In this document: positions 3,083 to 15,157 of the stretch, in pieces | Layout: each line of letters begins with the position of its first letter | Position numbering within the stretch: the first letter of the stretch is position 1 | Source of the DNA: a virus | IMG/VR virus record: IMGVR_UViG_3300036406_001194 | Coordinates: 1-20,705 of that record | Reading direction: 5' to 3' (one strand) | DNA length: 20,705 nt | Made by a program: the position numbers and the translations under genes | The notes under the pieces: model-generated | What the model was told of the DNA's origin: nothing | The model's input: the letters and a program-made list of their open reading frames with translations, nothing else | Databases searched by the model: none

Positions 3083-5514
3083 GTATGCAACTGTCTGTTA
3101 CAGCACAGGCACTTATAAATGAAATAGGGATCAATCCACAGATCATTCTAGAAATTGAAGGTCTTGATCTTATATTTGGAGCACTTCCAATCTTAAAAAC
3201 TGCTCGATGGGATGATGAATCTCCTGATGCTATTTGGGACGGTGGGGCAACCTGGGATGGTAAATTCGAAGACATTAGATCAAGAGACTGGATTTCTCTA
3301 AACGAAACAACCACAAATATCACTCAACAAATTGCACCAGACAAGGGATCAACTAGCTCAATTTCTACAGTTAATATCTGCATAATTGACGTGAATAACG
3401 AAGTATCTAAAGCGATTGCATTTGATAGCATCTCAGACATTCTAGGAAGGAAAGCGACTTTTAGTATAGGATTTGCTCAAGGTGCTCATCCTGAAGATTC
3501 TAATCCAATATTTCGTGGCGTAGTGGTTGATTTCTATTCTGAAGCTGGGAAGATAATGATTTCCCTAGCGTCTCCTGAGGTGTTTAAAAGGCAGCTATTC
3601 TTAGAGAAATTTCAGACTGAAACGACCGCAGCATTAACAAACTCACAAACAATTATTCCTGTCGCATCCACGGCCGGAATTTATCCTGCTCAGGATGCCT
3701 TAAATTCATTCATCAGAATTGATGATGAAATCATGAAGATTATAAGCATTGACTCTGATACGCAGGTGACGGTTATTAGAGCACAGCTTAACACGTTGGC
3801 CAATCCGCATGATGATGAGGCATCCGCTGACACATTCTACACACTAACAGGTAAGCCATTAGACTTGGCACTTAAAGTAATGTTATCAAGCGAAGGTAAT
3901 GCTTATTTTGAGTCTCTTGATGTTCCCAAAAGCATTGAGTTTGTTTCTCTAACAGAGCAGATTCAAAACGCTCTAATTTTTGATTATTACGACATAAAAG
4001 AAAAAACAGGACTGACTATAGGTGACAGCATCCAGCTTGATTCTACGCTTAATACAGGAACCTACACGATTGACTTCTTTGGATCACTACCTAGCGGTGG
4101 TTCTTATATTGTTTTAAATGAGTCACTTAATCTTGAAGTTGAATACACCGGAACATTCAAATACAAGTCAAAATACAACACTTTGAGCACTGGTCTAGAA
4201 ATGCTTACAAGTGAAGTTGACGTTGATCAGTTTGAGCTTATTGATCTTCAGTACGGAAACAATTTTGTTAATTACGAAATCTATATTAAAGACTCAATTG
4301 ATAATGCAAAAGACTTTATTGACTCACAGATCTTCTTTCCACAGGGCCTTTATTCAATCCCACGGAAAGCAAGATCATCAGTTAAATTCGTTGCTCCTCC
4401 TTTTTCATCTGACATCGTTCCTTATATTGGAATAGATAATGTTTTAAATGCGAGCAAGATAAAGCAGAGAAGATCGGTACACAAGTACCATTATAATACT
4501 TTCGTTTATAGATATAACGTCGATTCAATCGAAGATAAGTATCTTGCTGGTAAAGTTATCATTTCGGCCGATTCCATAGACAGAATACCAGTAGGTAAAA
4601 AGCAGTTAAGAATTGAATCTGATGGATTAAGAAACACTCCTGACACATCAAATATGATCAGTAATGTTGGGCAAAGGCAGCTTGATCGGTATCAGTATGC
4701 GCCAGTCTATTACGATGACATTGAAGTTAATTATAAGACTGGTTATGCTTTAGAAGTTGGGGATGTTGTTCCATTTGGTGGATCAGATTTAAAGATTTCT
4801 GATCTTCAGACAGGATCACAAGGAACTAAGTTCGAGCTTTTCGAGATTATTAACAAATCTCTAAACGTAAAAAATGGAAACATTAAGCTATCTTTAGTTT
4901 CTACAGCTTTTGATATTGCCTCACGATATGCGGTGGTTGCTCTGTCTAGCATTCTTGGTGAAGGTTCTACAATAAACAGAATCAAGATAGAAAGATTTTT
5001 AGATACTGAAGAATACTTCCAAGAATCTGATAAGTGGCTAGACTATGAGTGGCAGATCGTTGCCGTAAGATCACCTGACTACACTTACTATCATGAAGTT
5101 GAGTTTAAGGGTGTTGATCCTTCAGATAACGGATTTCTTCTTTTAGAGGAGAATCTGCCTACTCCACCACTTGCTGGCTATATTATTGAACCTGCTGATT
5201 ATTCTAATGAGGCGATTGTAAATGACAGGTTTAAGATTGAGTTTGCTCATTTTAACGCTGAGGCAGTAATTACAAACGCCATTAGTCAGACTATTTTAGA
5301 GGTGAATGATGCTTCAAAATTGGTTGTCGGGTCATTTATAGTGGTTAACTCAAAGGATTACGCTAGAGACAGTTTTGGGAAGAAGCTTAAAATTGACTCG
5401 ATTGTTGGGAATCAGGTAACATTGAACACAAGCATAGGGTTCTTGCCGTTAGTTGGGGACTTAGTAAATAACTCCAATTACCAGGATAATGGAACTCCTT
5501 ACGTTTTCATTTAG
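3079..5514 (+). CDS. Large tail / baseplate-hub-like protein
   Basis: An 811-residue, beta-rich protein with no signal peptide. The N-terminal 200 residues (LEIEGLDLIFG, repeated WDGG/WDGK tryptophans, ILGRKATFSIGFAQG, IFRGVVVDF, then ISLASPE) look like the hub domain of siphovirus tail-tip or baseplate proteins, where a segment about strand pairing (FRG-vvd) is typical. A central part (GKKQLRIESDGLR, then YYDDIEVNYKTGYALEVGDV) resembles the second hub barrel, and the C-terminal 150 residues appear to be a separate receptor-proximal domain. Position between the fibre-like gene and the small virion proteins fits a tail-tip component. Start chosen at the ATG overlapping the previous stop; a second ATG lies two codons later. 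Confidence 0.65.
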   Translation: MSMQLSVTAQALINEIGINPQIILEIEGLDLIFGALPILKTARWDDESPDAIWDGGATWDGKFEDIRSRDWISLNETTTNITQQIAPDKGSTSSISTVNICIIDVNNEVSKAIAFDSISDILGRKATFSIGFAQGAHPEDSNPIFRGVVVDFYSEAGKIMISLASPEVFKRQLFLEKFQTETTAALTNSQTIIPVASTAGIYPAQDALNSFIRIDDEIMKIISIDSDTQVTVIRAQLNTLANPHDDEASADTFYTLTGKPLDLALKVMLSSEGNAYFESLDVPKSIEFVSLTEQIQNALIFDYYDIKEKTGLTIGDSIQLDSTLNTGTYTIDFFGSLPSGGSYIVLNESLNLEVEYTGTFKYKSKYNTLSTGLEMLTSEVDVDQFELIDLQYGNNFVNYEIYIKDSIDNAKDFIDSQIFFPQGLYSIPRKARSSVKFVAPPFSSDIVPYIGIDNVLNASKIKQRRSVHKYHYNTFVYRYNVDSIEDKYLAGKVIISADSIDRIPVGKKQLRIESDGLRNTPDTSNMISNVGQRQLDRYQYAPVYYDDIEVNYKTGYALEVGDVVPFGGSDLKISDLQTGSQGTKFELFEIINKSLNVKNGNIKLSLVSTAFDIASRYAVVALSSILGEGSTINRIKIERFLDTEEYFQESDKWLDYEWQIVAVRSPDYTYYHEVEFKGVDPSDNGFLLLEENLPTPPLAGYIIEPADYSNEAIVNDRFKIEFAHFNAEAVITNAISQTILEVNDASKLVVGSFIVVNSKDYARDSFGKKLKIDSIVGNQVTLNTSIGFLPLVGDLVNNSNYQDNGTPYVFI

Positions 5515-9944: not shown

Positions 9945-10100
9945 TTATTTAGACCAAGACACAGACCCAGACCAAGACCTAGACCCAGACCCAGACCTAG
10001 ACCAAGACCTAGACCCAGACCAAGACCTAGACCAAGACCAAGACCAAGACCTAGACCCAGACCCAGACCCAGACCATTTTTGTTTTTTTCCTCTAATCAT
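9945..10100 (-). CDS. Possible 51-residue Trp/Gly/Arg-Ser repeat peptide
   Basis: Across the hexamer array on the leftward strand, an ATG at 10100 overlaps the stop of the Sm-like gene (ATGA at 10097-10100) and reads MIRGKKQK, then 21 dipeptides ending in Ser (WS, GS or RS; one unit gives VS), then Lys and TAA. The overlap geometry is that of every real gene pair in this operon, but the ribosome site is poor and the peptide is pure repeat. It may be real, a leader peptide, or chance. Confidence 0.25.
   Translation of the reverse strand: MIRGKKQKWSGSGSGSRSWSWSWSRSWSGSRSWSRSGSGSRSWSGSVSWSK
9951..10076. repeat. Hexanucleotide tandem array, 21 units of AGACCN
   Basis: Twenty-one head-to-tail 6-base units on the plus strand, each AGACC followed by A, C or T (never G); the second unit alone has a different fifth base. 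The units are unbroken. On the leftward (message) strand it reads NGGTCT and is rich in GG and GGG. The array lies between the Sm-like gene and ssb, 22 bases before the ssb ATG. In frame GGT-CTN it stays open into ssb, but no start codon other than CTG is present. Possible roles include a binding-site array, a structured leader with G-quadruplex potential, or a slippage-driven length switch. Confidence 0.97.
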
Positions 10101-11464: not shown

Positions 11465-11496
11465 CAAAAACCAAGCAGATAGGTAAATAATAATTT

Positions 11497-11531
11497 AGTA
11501 CGATATTAAGACAGTTCCATATTAGTACTGT
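11497..11531. promoter_or_regulatory. Second dyad group in the divergent region
   Basis: AGTAC (11497-11501) pairs with GTACT (11525-11529), and ACAGT (11511-11515) with ACTGT (11527-11531), with spacers of 23 and 11 bases. The inner pair is flanked by further imperfect symmetry (ATTAAG before, TTAATT after). These may be repressor or activator half-sites for the rightward promoter. Weak by themselves, but clustered with the TTTAGTA repeats in a short region. Confidence 0.4.
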
Positions 11532-11549
11532 TAATTCAGCATTTTAGGG

Positions 11550-11578
11550 TTTACATTTGCAATTTATTTGAGGATAAA
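11550..11578 (+). promoter_or_regulatory. Candidate rightward promoter (weak)
   Basis: TTTACA at 11550-11555 and GATAAA at 11573-11578 are 17 bases apart and match sigma-70 boxes at five and four positions. It would produce an RNA beginning near 11585 and a leader of about 124 bases. If correct, the 5' arm of the outer stem proposed for the leader (11573-11582) would not be in the transcript, so promoter and full leader fold exclude each other. Confidence 0.35.
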
Positions 11579-11694
11579 AACTTATCTTAAGCGATCGCAC
11601 CGCTACAAATATTTTATTCACAATGATGGGAAACCATCTTTCCTCTCTACCTGGGTGCGACTTTCCGAATGGATTGCCGGGTAGAGTTTTTATC
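11573..11694 (+). promoter_or_regulatory. Structured leader with terminator-like hairpin (attenuator candidate)
   Basis: Upstream of the rightward replication operon are four complementary pairs: GATAAAAACT (11573-11582) with AGTTTTTATC (11685-11694); TCGCACC (11595-11601) with GGTGCGA (11654-11660); GATGG-GAAA-CCATC (11625-11638, GNRA tetraloop); and CTCTACCTGG (11645-11654) with CCGGGTAGAG (11677-11686), ten pairs with one G-T wobble, followed at once by TTTTT (11687-11691). The last looks like an intrinsic terminator 17 bases before the start codon. Segment GGTGCGA lies at the edge of its loop, so pairing with TCGCACC would give a pseudoknot or compete with it. Attenuation or antitermination control is inferred. 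Confidence 0.55.
11645..11691 (+). terminator. Intrinsic-terminator-like hairpin in the leader
   Basis: A ten-pair stem (CTCTACCTGG / CCGGGTAGAG), a 22-base loop with an inner TCC-GAAT-GGA mini-stem, and five T residues directly after it. It lies before the gene at 11709 and not after a gene, so it would cut early transcription unless it is relieved. Reversed, no T-run follows, so it works rightward only. Confidence 0.55.
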
Positions 11695-11708
11695 TTGAGA
11701 GGTGATTT

Positions 11709-12482
11709 ATGGCATCGGGAAAAAAGAATTATTTTAGACATTCAAACACTGCATTTGATGATGAAAAAATACAAAAGTGCATAGAACTTTTAGGGTATGA
11801 GGGTTATGCCTATTATTTTATTCTTTTAGAAGTTTTGGCTAAACAGTGCGAAAATTCTTTCAAGAATCCTATAACAATTCACACACAAAGTTTACGAAAT
11901 GTTTGGAGAAAGCAGGATAAAAGTTGCATAAAAGTAGTAAAAAAGTTGGAAGAAAGTGGTCTCTTTGTTGCTACTTTTAGGGAAAGTTTTGTTGATTTCT
12001 ATATACCTAACCTATCAAAATATATGGGAAAATATGAAACCAAAATTCATTCAAATTCCCCTAATAAAAGAAAAGAAAAAGAAATAAAAGAAAAAGAAAG
12101 TAAAATAAAAGAAAATAAAGAAAATACTTCAGCCAAATCAGAAACATCGACAAGCGATGTTCGGGAGGTTTATAAAAGATCCTACTACCTGCGTTATGGA
12201 ATTTACCCAGTTTGGTCAGTAAAAGAAAATTCTTTAGCAAAAAAACTTGTTGCCAGTATTGGCCTAGATGAGGCAAAACAACTTGCAGAGTATTACCCAA
12301 ACTACAGGGATCGATTCCATGAACAGAAAAAACACCCATTTGCCCTACTTGTTTCGCAAGTCGATCAGGTTAGAGTTGCCAGTAATGGTAGAACAGCATT
12401 GCCTGACTATGGGAATCCGTACACCAAAAAACTTAAAGAACTTGAGCGTCTTGAAAAATTAAATGAGGTAAAAAATGTCTAA
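11709..12482 (+). CDS. Replisome organiser / DnaT-like replication initiation protein (DUF4373-like)
   Basis: A 257-residue protein. The N-terminal 110 residues (NYFRHSNTAFDDEKIQKCIE, LGYEGYAYYFILLEVLAKQC, then a helix set ending VDFYIPNL) match the Lin1244/Lin1753-like domain (DUF4373) found in phage replication organisers that bind origin DNA. Residues 118-150 are a low-complexity K/E linker from adenine-rich DNA. The C-terminal part (VYKRSYYLRYGIYPVW, then YYPNYRDRFHEQKKHPFALL) is like the DnaD/replication-protein C-terminal helical domain. SD GAGGTG. The stop overlaps the next gene by 8 bases. Likely works with the loader downstream and a host helicase. Confidence 0.75.
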   Translation: MASGKKNYFRHSNTAFDDEKIQKCIELLGYEGYAYYFILLEVLAKQCENSFKNPITIHTQSLRNVWRKQDKSCIKVVKKLEESGLFVATFRESFVDFYIPNLSKYMGKYETKIHSNSPNKRKEKEIKEKESKIKENKENTSAKSETSTSDVREVYKRSYYLRYGIYPVWSVKENSLAKKLVASIGLDEAKQLAEYYPNYRDRFHEQKKHPFALLVSQVDQVRVASNGRTALPDYGNPYTKKLKELERLEKLNEVKNV

Positions 12483-14800: not shown

Positions 14801-14900
14801 AAAATCTGGATCATCCGTCTATGAGGTATCAGATGGCAATAAAACATTGATAATCTTTGGTTATAAGCAACTTTTAACATTTTTTAGGAGCGTAAAATGA
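14772..14900 (+). CDS. Hypothetical small basic protein
   Basis: A 42-residue basic protein (MNWLVKKRFRKSG, then VYEVSDGNKTLIIFGYKQ). I start it at ATG 14772, which has AGAGG six bases upstream, and not at the TTG 54 bases earlier. The opposite charge to the preceding acidic protein, and overlapping genes, may mean the two work together. The stop overlaps the ATG of the XRE gene (ATGA). Confidence 0.5.
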   Translation: MNWLVKKRFRKSGSSVYEVSDGNKTLIIFGYKQLLTFFRSVK

Positions 14901-15157
14901 ACGTTAAGGCAGACGCTATTGCTGATTTCATTAGAATTACAAGAGAATCGAAAAACATATCACAAAAAGAATTATCCGCTAAACTTGGTCTTGCCGACAA
15001 TGGCCAGTACATAAGTAATGTCGAGAGAAAAAAATCTCAATTTCCAATTAAAAGAATAAAGGATTTATCCCAAGCATTAGACGTTGGAGTTGAATCGCTA
15101 GTTAACCTCATGGTTGATGATTATAGAAATGCACTTTTAAAAGAGATTTCAAAATGA
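14897..15157 (+). CDS. XRE/Cro-CI family DNA-binding regulator
   Basis: An 86-residue single-domain regulator. The HTH_3 fold is clear: FIRITRESKNISQKELSAKL (helices 1-2), then LGLADNGQYISNVERKK (recognition helix 3 with the characteristic S-VERxK), then helix 4-5 RIKDLSQALDVGVESL. No dimerisation or protease domain follows. It is a likely Cro-like repressor of the early promoters; the dyads at 11417-11531 and 17339-17353 are the sites that could be tested for binding. It is embedded in an operon, so it may regulate its own expression through the upstream region. Confidence 0.85.
   Translation: MNVKADAIADFIRITRESKNISQKELSAKLGLADNGQYISNVERKKSQFPIKRIKDLSQALDVGVESLVNLMVDDYRNALLKEISK

Follow-up and report, generated by a model that had tools for sequence, protein, structure and literature searches.

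The intergenic stretch ahead of the rightward replication operon of phage record G000 (20,705 bases, analysed at full length and here called the window) carries a compact RNA element whose core consists of three hairpins (HP1, HP2 and HP3) and a kissing helix; as judged by compensatory changes among relatives, this core is a real RNA element and is kept in at least eight related phage leaders. The element was previously uncatalogued and is absent from Rfam. With moderate confidence we interpret it as a cis-acting untranslated leader that would attenuate transcription of the replication operon, with termination predicted at HP3.

Locus and components of the leader

The recombination genes of the phage (exonuclease, SSB and Erf) run leftward from ~11,400, and the rightward operon begins with its first gene at 11,709; the element lies between them, ahead of this gene. 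The product of the first rightward gene matched the Pfam family PF14297 (E 3e-7) and phrog_2562, a replication initiation protein (E 3e-9); behind the gene, hereafter rep, come a 168-aa ORF and a gene resembling a DNA polymerase exonuclease subunit, with the terminase gene farther along. On the leftward side, a tandem low-complexity repeat at 9950-10100, between the SSB gene and the next leftward ORF, encodes DPDQDLDPD-like or RPRPRP sequence on the + strand and reads GGTCTG-like on the minus strand. The features of the leader region are as follows.

11550..11578, + strand: predicted sigma-70-like promoter TTTACA-17-GATAAA, with a predicted transcription start at ~11585
11590..11604, + strand: HP1, AGCG-ATCGCAC-CGCT, its 7-nt loop being the kissing strand; covarying
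11595..11601, + strand: kissing strand TCGCACC in the HP1 loop, pairing with 11654-11660
11625..11638, + strand: HP2, GATGG-GAAA-CCATC; two-sided changes at 4/5 pairs
11645..11686, + strand: HP3, terminator-like, 10-bp stem and 22-nt loop, -17.3 kcal/mol; two-sided changes at 5/10 pairs
11654..11660, + strand: GGTGCGA, the kissing partner, which begins at the last G of the HP3 5' arm; covarying
11664..11673, + strand: HP4, TCC-GAAT-GGA, a small hairpin within the HP3 loop, from comparison of members
11687..11691, + strand: U-tract TTTTT directly after HP3
11698..11702, + strand: Shine-Dalgarno-like AGAGG, 6 bases ahead of ATG 11709, from sequence
11709..12482, + strand: Lin1244/DUF4373-type replication initiation gene (257 aa), the first gene behind the leader

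The main parts named in a preliminary description of this DNA are present as described: the GNRA hairpin (HP2), the 10-pair stem with TTTTT 17 bases ahead of ATG 11709 (HP3, with arms CTCTACCTGG at 11645-11654 and CCGGGTAGAG at 11677-11686), and the 7-base complementarity TCGCACC/GGTGCGA. The 4-bp stem of HP1 (AGCG/CGCT) and HP4 are additions to that description; its 10-base outer pair GGATAAAAAC/GTTTTTATC was abandoned. The 5' strand of this pair (11573-11582) starts with the predicted -10 box (11573-11578) and runs a few bases past it, and is therefore probably not transcribed; moreover, the pair is absent from L004, the nearest divergent relative, which keeps TTTACA-17-TATAAG. The promoter itself scores 9/12 in the window, a value that is equalled by 15% of shuffles and not significant alone; its support comes instead from conservation, the same -35 box and spacing recurring in relatives with the -10 boxes GATAAA (L007), TATAAG (L004), TATTGT (L105) and CATAAA (L008).

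Covariation among related leaders

Folding of the window leader alone gave a z-score of -1.78, with 8/200 shuffles as stable; since this single-sequence statistic is modest, relatives were needed as a test. Divergent phages were gathered via the exonuclease gene, and an alignment of the rep proteins was used to find further rep genes and their leaders. In L004 the leader and the rep gene behind it are both diverged, with the kissing strands CTGCACC/GGTGCAG (two pairs changed on both sides) and the HP3 arms CTCTACTTGG/CCAGGTAGAG; the leaders of L071, L081 and L082 follow the same plan in different letters, and those of L063, L064 and L065 share this plan too. A covariance model built from the window, L004 and L081 recovered the L105 leader, previously unused in the analysis and thus an independent fourth member, at E 8.9e-11, and weakly L082 and L071 at E ~0.02. 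The L105 leader carries the GNRA hairpin, the kissing helix and TCTTTTTATTT, and has a small ORF between the element and the rep gene. All members lie upstream of Lin1244/DUF4373-type replication-initiation genes. Among 50 unrelated loci chosen only for shared GCGATCGCACC..GGTGCGA letters (viral-contig DNA search matches besides the window's own phage), the covariance models found no matches.

In a model-made alignment of six members, 98.1% of the cells were paired and 20/28 pairs showed two-sided changes, compared with a mean of 8.3 in a shuffle control that reached this count in 0/500 cases; slid-alignment controls stayed at or below 47.5% paired. A hand alignment of eight members, in which L071, L082, L063 and L065 were placed by hand, had 179/184 cells paired and two-sided changes at 21/23 positions, not all of which are independent events, as the window, L004 and L081 share ancestry. 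The compensatory changes on which the preliminary description had made its proposal depend are therefore present in relatives, and they indicate a real element despite the weak folding statistic. Chance folding of AT-rich intergenic DNA, the reading to which the low z-score would point, is contradicted by these counts and by the independent match to L105, and is extremely improbable.

The kissing helix is, from these alignments, the best-supported part of the element. TCGCACC lies in the HP1 loop, so that the contact is a loop-loop (kissing) one; its counterparts elsewhere read CTGCACC, AACGACC, GTCGCT and CTAGCAA, each with a matching partner. Two-sided changes were seen at 5/6 kissing pairs in the six-member alignment, which is a fair test because the underlying covariance model carried no pseudoknot; over the eight hand-aligned members all six pairs covary, and 6-8 Watson-Crick pairs connect the HP1 loop to the 5' side of the HP3 loop in 8/8. 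Among the hairpins, HP1 is 100% paired in the six-member alignment, with two-sided changes at 3/4 pairs; the eight members show one broken cell, stems of 3-5 bp and loops of 6-9 nt. HP2 keeps a GNRA loop (GAAA or GCAA) in six of the eight, and HP3 is 98% paired over six members, with stems of 9-13 bp over eight. HP4 has 3-6 bp in the window, L081, L105, L071 and L082, is broken in L004 and is absent from L063 and L065.

A descriptor combining HP1, kissing helix, HP3 and T-rich tail also fits the leaders of L004, L065, L081 and L082; it is matched by 1.0% of dinucleotide shuffles of the window leader and by 0.3-2.5% of shuffles for the five leaders, a first, looser motif scan having been too permissive to be useful. 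The Lin1244 leaders of L068, L072, L075, L076, L078 and L079 showed no such element. In L073 (2870-3000), the GC-rich leader of a Lin1244-type gene has a 9-bp terminator followed by 8 U, and an 8-bp pairing TGATCACC/GGTGGTCA from the 5' end of the leader to the terminator loop, which uses an HP1 arm and not the HP1 loop; it is a possible divergent member of the same kind and is not counted among the eight.

The preliminary statement that the leader matches no known class holds for Rfam 15: at the gathering score the window had no matches, at permissive E-values it had chance-level matches only, and the relatives searched had none. Searches of GenBank phages and PLSDB found no relatives of the leader or of rep, except two Porphyromonas phage matches of 35 residues; two bacterial genome scans gave no matches. 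The STAXI pseudoknots (PMC2864571) were considered and set aside; they are tandem repeats and do not fit.

Predicted attenuation and alternative readings

In the window, the T-run stands behind HP3 on the + strand only (a minus-strand hairpin would have AGGAAAG behind it), which makes HP3 a plausible intrinsic terminator between the promoter and rep. In nine leaders the HP3 energies range from -14.0 to -23.6 kcal/mol, and in 9/9 there are 5-8 T among the first eight bases behind it, with a late start, AATATTTT, in L063 and L065. A GC-containing hairpin with a U-tract between promoter and first gene, the arrangement characteristic of attenuators, is thus found here, the T-rich tail in all nine leaders and a promoter-like site noted in the window, L004 and L105. 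Points against termination are the A-T content at the base of the HP3 stem, the 22-nt loop, the modest U-tract in the window, L004 and L081, and the late U-tract of L063 and L065. A simple terminator scan missed HP3 because of its 22-nt loop. The preliminary reading of a structured leader with a terminator before a replication operon is borne out by the Lin1244 rep gene downstream, the covarying fold and the recurrent U-tract. Its further suggestion of a put-type antiterminator did not stand. Put RNAs have two hairpins, lack a terminator of their own and enable RNA polymerase to read through terminators far downstream; processive antitermination of the put or EAR kind in the long rightward operon would suit the position directly behind the predicted promoter of an operon that includes the terminase gene, but the element ends in its own terminator-like hairpin with U-tract and no Rfam family matches, so that this function is very unlikely.

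The preliminary description had left open whether the 7-base pairing forms a pseudoknot or competes with the terminator. The loop-loop contact is supported by covariation; competition is not, since the kissing helix shares a single pair with HP3, the innermost (the last base of the HP3 5' arm), and is compatible with it. Attenuation is the best reading of a U-tract hairpin between promoter and rep; a non-systematic look revealed no conserved alternative antiterminator stem. Comparison places the structure on this strand. Under the attenuation model, a leader RNA of ~105 nt would extend from a predicted start near 11585 to 11691, HP3 and the U-tract acting as an intrinsic terminator just before the rep ribosome binding site. 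In the nascent RNA, the HP1 loop would capture the sequence directly behind the HP3 5' arm; because the overlap with HP3 is limited to one pair, we infer that this contact should pre-organise HP3 and promote termination, not counteract it. Anything that disrupts or covers the kissing contact would then set the level of read-through, and hence of rep expression; candidates are the Rep protein, a phage factor, and an RNA that is either antisense or derived from the leader itself. The element probably decides how often the operon is transcribed. Leader-peptide attenuation was rejected: ATG 11623 has no Shine-Dalgarno sequence, and its frame and sequence differ between the window and L004, so that the lack of a conserved leader peptide argues against control by ribosomes. 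The element is compact and covaries in several phage lineages, and its kissing helix is swappable, which makes the mechanism directly testable with natural variants.

Proximity to the start codon, 6-20 bases behind the element, raises a different possibility, that Rep or a small molecule binds the fold and acts via access to the ribosome binding site. The GNRA loop kept in six of the eight members would be in keeping with such a translational or ligand/protein-binding element, as would a 5-bp closing pair in the window and L004, TCTTA (11585-11589)/TGAGA (11696-11700), which extends into the Shine-Dalgarno AGAGG and shows a two-sided change at one pair in L004. However, this closing pair is absent from the other members; an anti-Shine-Dalgarno pairing of the HP1 strand (CACC/GGTG), possible in the window, L004 and L073, is not conserved and was discarded; the L105 element precedes a different small ORF and not rep; and the U-tract is the more constant feature. 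Pseudoknot riboswitches with a terminator platform also combine a pseudoknot and a terminator in a 5' leader, but they differ in having a conserved unpaired core; here no strongly conserved unpaired nucleotides are seen and the pairs covary freely, giving no evidence of a ligand pocket. We regard control at the level of translation or ligand binding as quite unlikely.

The terminated leader could also be the product itself, a small trans-acting RNA of ~105 nt that uses its HP1 loop to pair with HP3 loops of other nascent leaders in copy-number-like or immunity-like feedback, for which the CI RNA of phage P4 is a precedent (PMC4825925). Both complementary strands lie within one transcript closely flanked by the predicted promoter and terminator, and the loops (TCGCACC, CTGCACC, AACGACC, GTCGCT, CTAGCAA) vary among lineages as specificity loops do. 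Yet the short spacing of ~55 nt favours pairing in cis, and CTGCACC is common to L004, L081 and L105, so that specificity is not very diverse; action in trans seems rather unlikely.

To our knowledge, few RNA-only attenuators of phage replication genes have been found, P4 being the textbook case. C4 antisense RNA (RF01695) of P1/P7-like phages is a further example of phage cis-encoded complementarity in a regulatory leader, a trait shared by the present element; it differs in gene and layout, and its Rfam family is not matched here. Phages and plasmids control replication genes by termination in the leader, as P4 (PMC4825925) and pIP501 (PMC4981023) illustrate. Processing of an untranslated leader yields the P4 CI RNA, which pairs with sequences upstream and downstream and thereby causes premature termination of the replication genes (PMC4825925). 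Both P4 immunity (CI RNA, seqA/seqC) and the present case, where termination before the replication gene is predicted, involve the untranslated leader of a phage replication operon and complementarity within one transcript, with a hairpin loop carrying one of the segments; in the present leader, the HP1 loop was indeed found to have its complement farther along. In P4, however, the leader is long, and the CI RNA is a distinct processed molecule that acts in trans at two sites, whereas here a single loop-loop helix forms inside ~105 nt and the terminator hairpin contains one of its strands; only one complementary pair was seen in the window leader, not two target sites flanking a separate RNA. 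In plasmid pIP501, premature termination occurs in a 329-bp replication-initiator leader, and loop-loop contacts decide attenuation (PMC4981023). The repR/RNAIII system of pIP501 and repC of pT181 share premature termination in a replication-initiator leader with the present element, where it is predicted, but in the plasmids an opposing promoter supplies the antisense RNA that the loops contact, whereas here a single RNA holds both loops. A scan for an opposing promoter gave a weak minus-strand site at 11841-11812 only, promoter-like matches overall staying below the shuffle mean, and no convincing one was seen. Since the two flanking targets of P4 are lacking and the antisense promoter of the plasmids has no clear match, the element is likened and not assigned to these systems; by analogy, it most likely works like P4/pIP501 attenuation and is a different RNA.

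RNA modules behind related promoters

The block at 11496-11582 is 86-87% identical in L007 and L008; the similarity ends exactly there, and the sequence beyond differs. Two other conserved RNAs occur at this place in related phages.

Type B, ~230-250 nt: L005 4310-4600; L006 4655-4890; L007 4686-4920; L009 4040-4260
Type B, further copies: L095 ~4480-4740; L098 4655-4880; L102 ~4670-4880; L104 ~4420-4660
Type C, ~330 nt: L008 90-420; also L097 and L101, upstream of the exonuclease gene

Type B is recognised by GGGATT..TTTCGCC, CGGCTCCGAAAAGCAT and a pyrimidine-rich 3' end; it is probably structured, with two-sided changes at 10/15 predicted consensus pairs. Type C carries the letters GGGAACGTGAAAA..GAGAGAAACAGGCGCA..GAGCGAGAAAGAACC. 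Neither type matched Rfam in the copies searched (for type C, L008 and L101). L007 and L062 derive from a single contig, and the L062 terminase shares 99% identity with that of the window; even so, L007 carries type B here and lacks a Lin1244 gene at this position. Because related phages carry type B or C at the same place, the comparison shows that at least three RNA modules, the kissing leader among them, follow related promoters. A further proposition, quite unlikely, is that RNA-based modules for control or replication are exchanged at the stretch behind the promoter, which would hold either the kissing leader with its Lin1244 rep (type A), or type B or C without it. If types B and C did replace the function or control of Rep, for example as origin transcripts or immunity RNAs, they would represent an unknown class of RNA-driven phage replication modules; the occupation of this place by different conserved RNAs in other phages suggests that RNA controls phage replication at a wider level, as yet unexplored.

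Inverted repeats resembling operators, TAGTACGATATTA / TAATATCGTACTA, precede the conserved promoter in the window (11496-11540) and in L097, L098 and L101; a phage repressor, for instance the HTH protein encoded at 14897-15157, might bind them.
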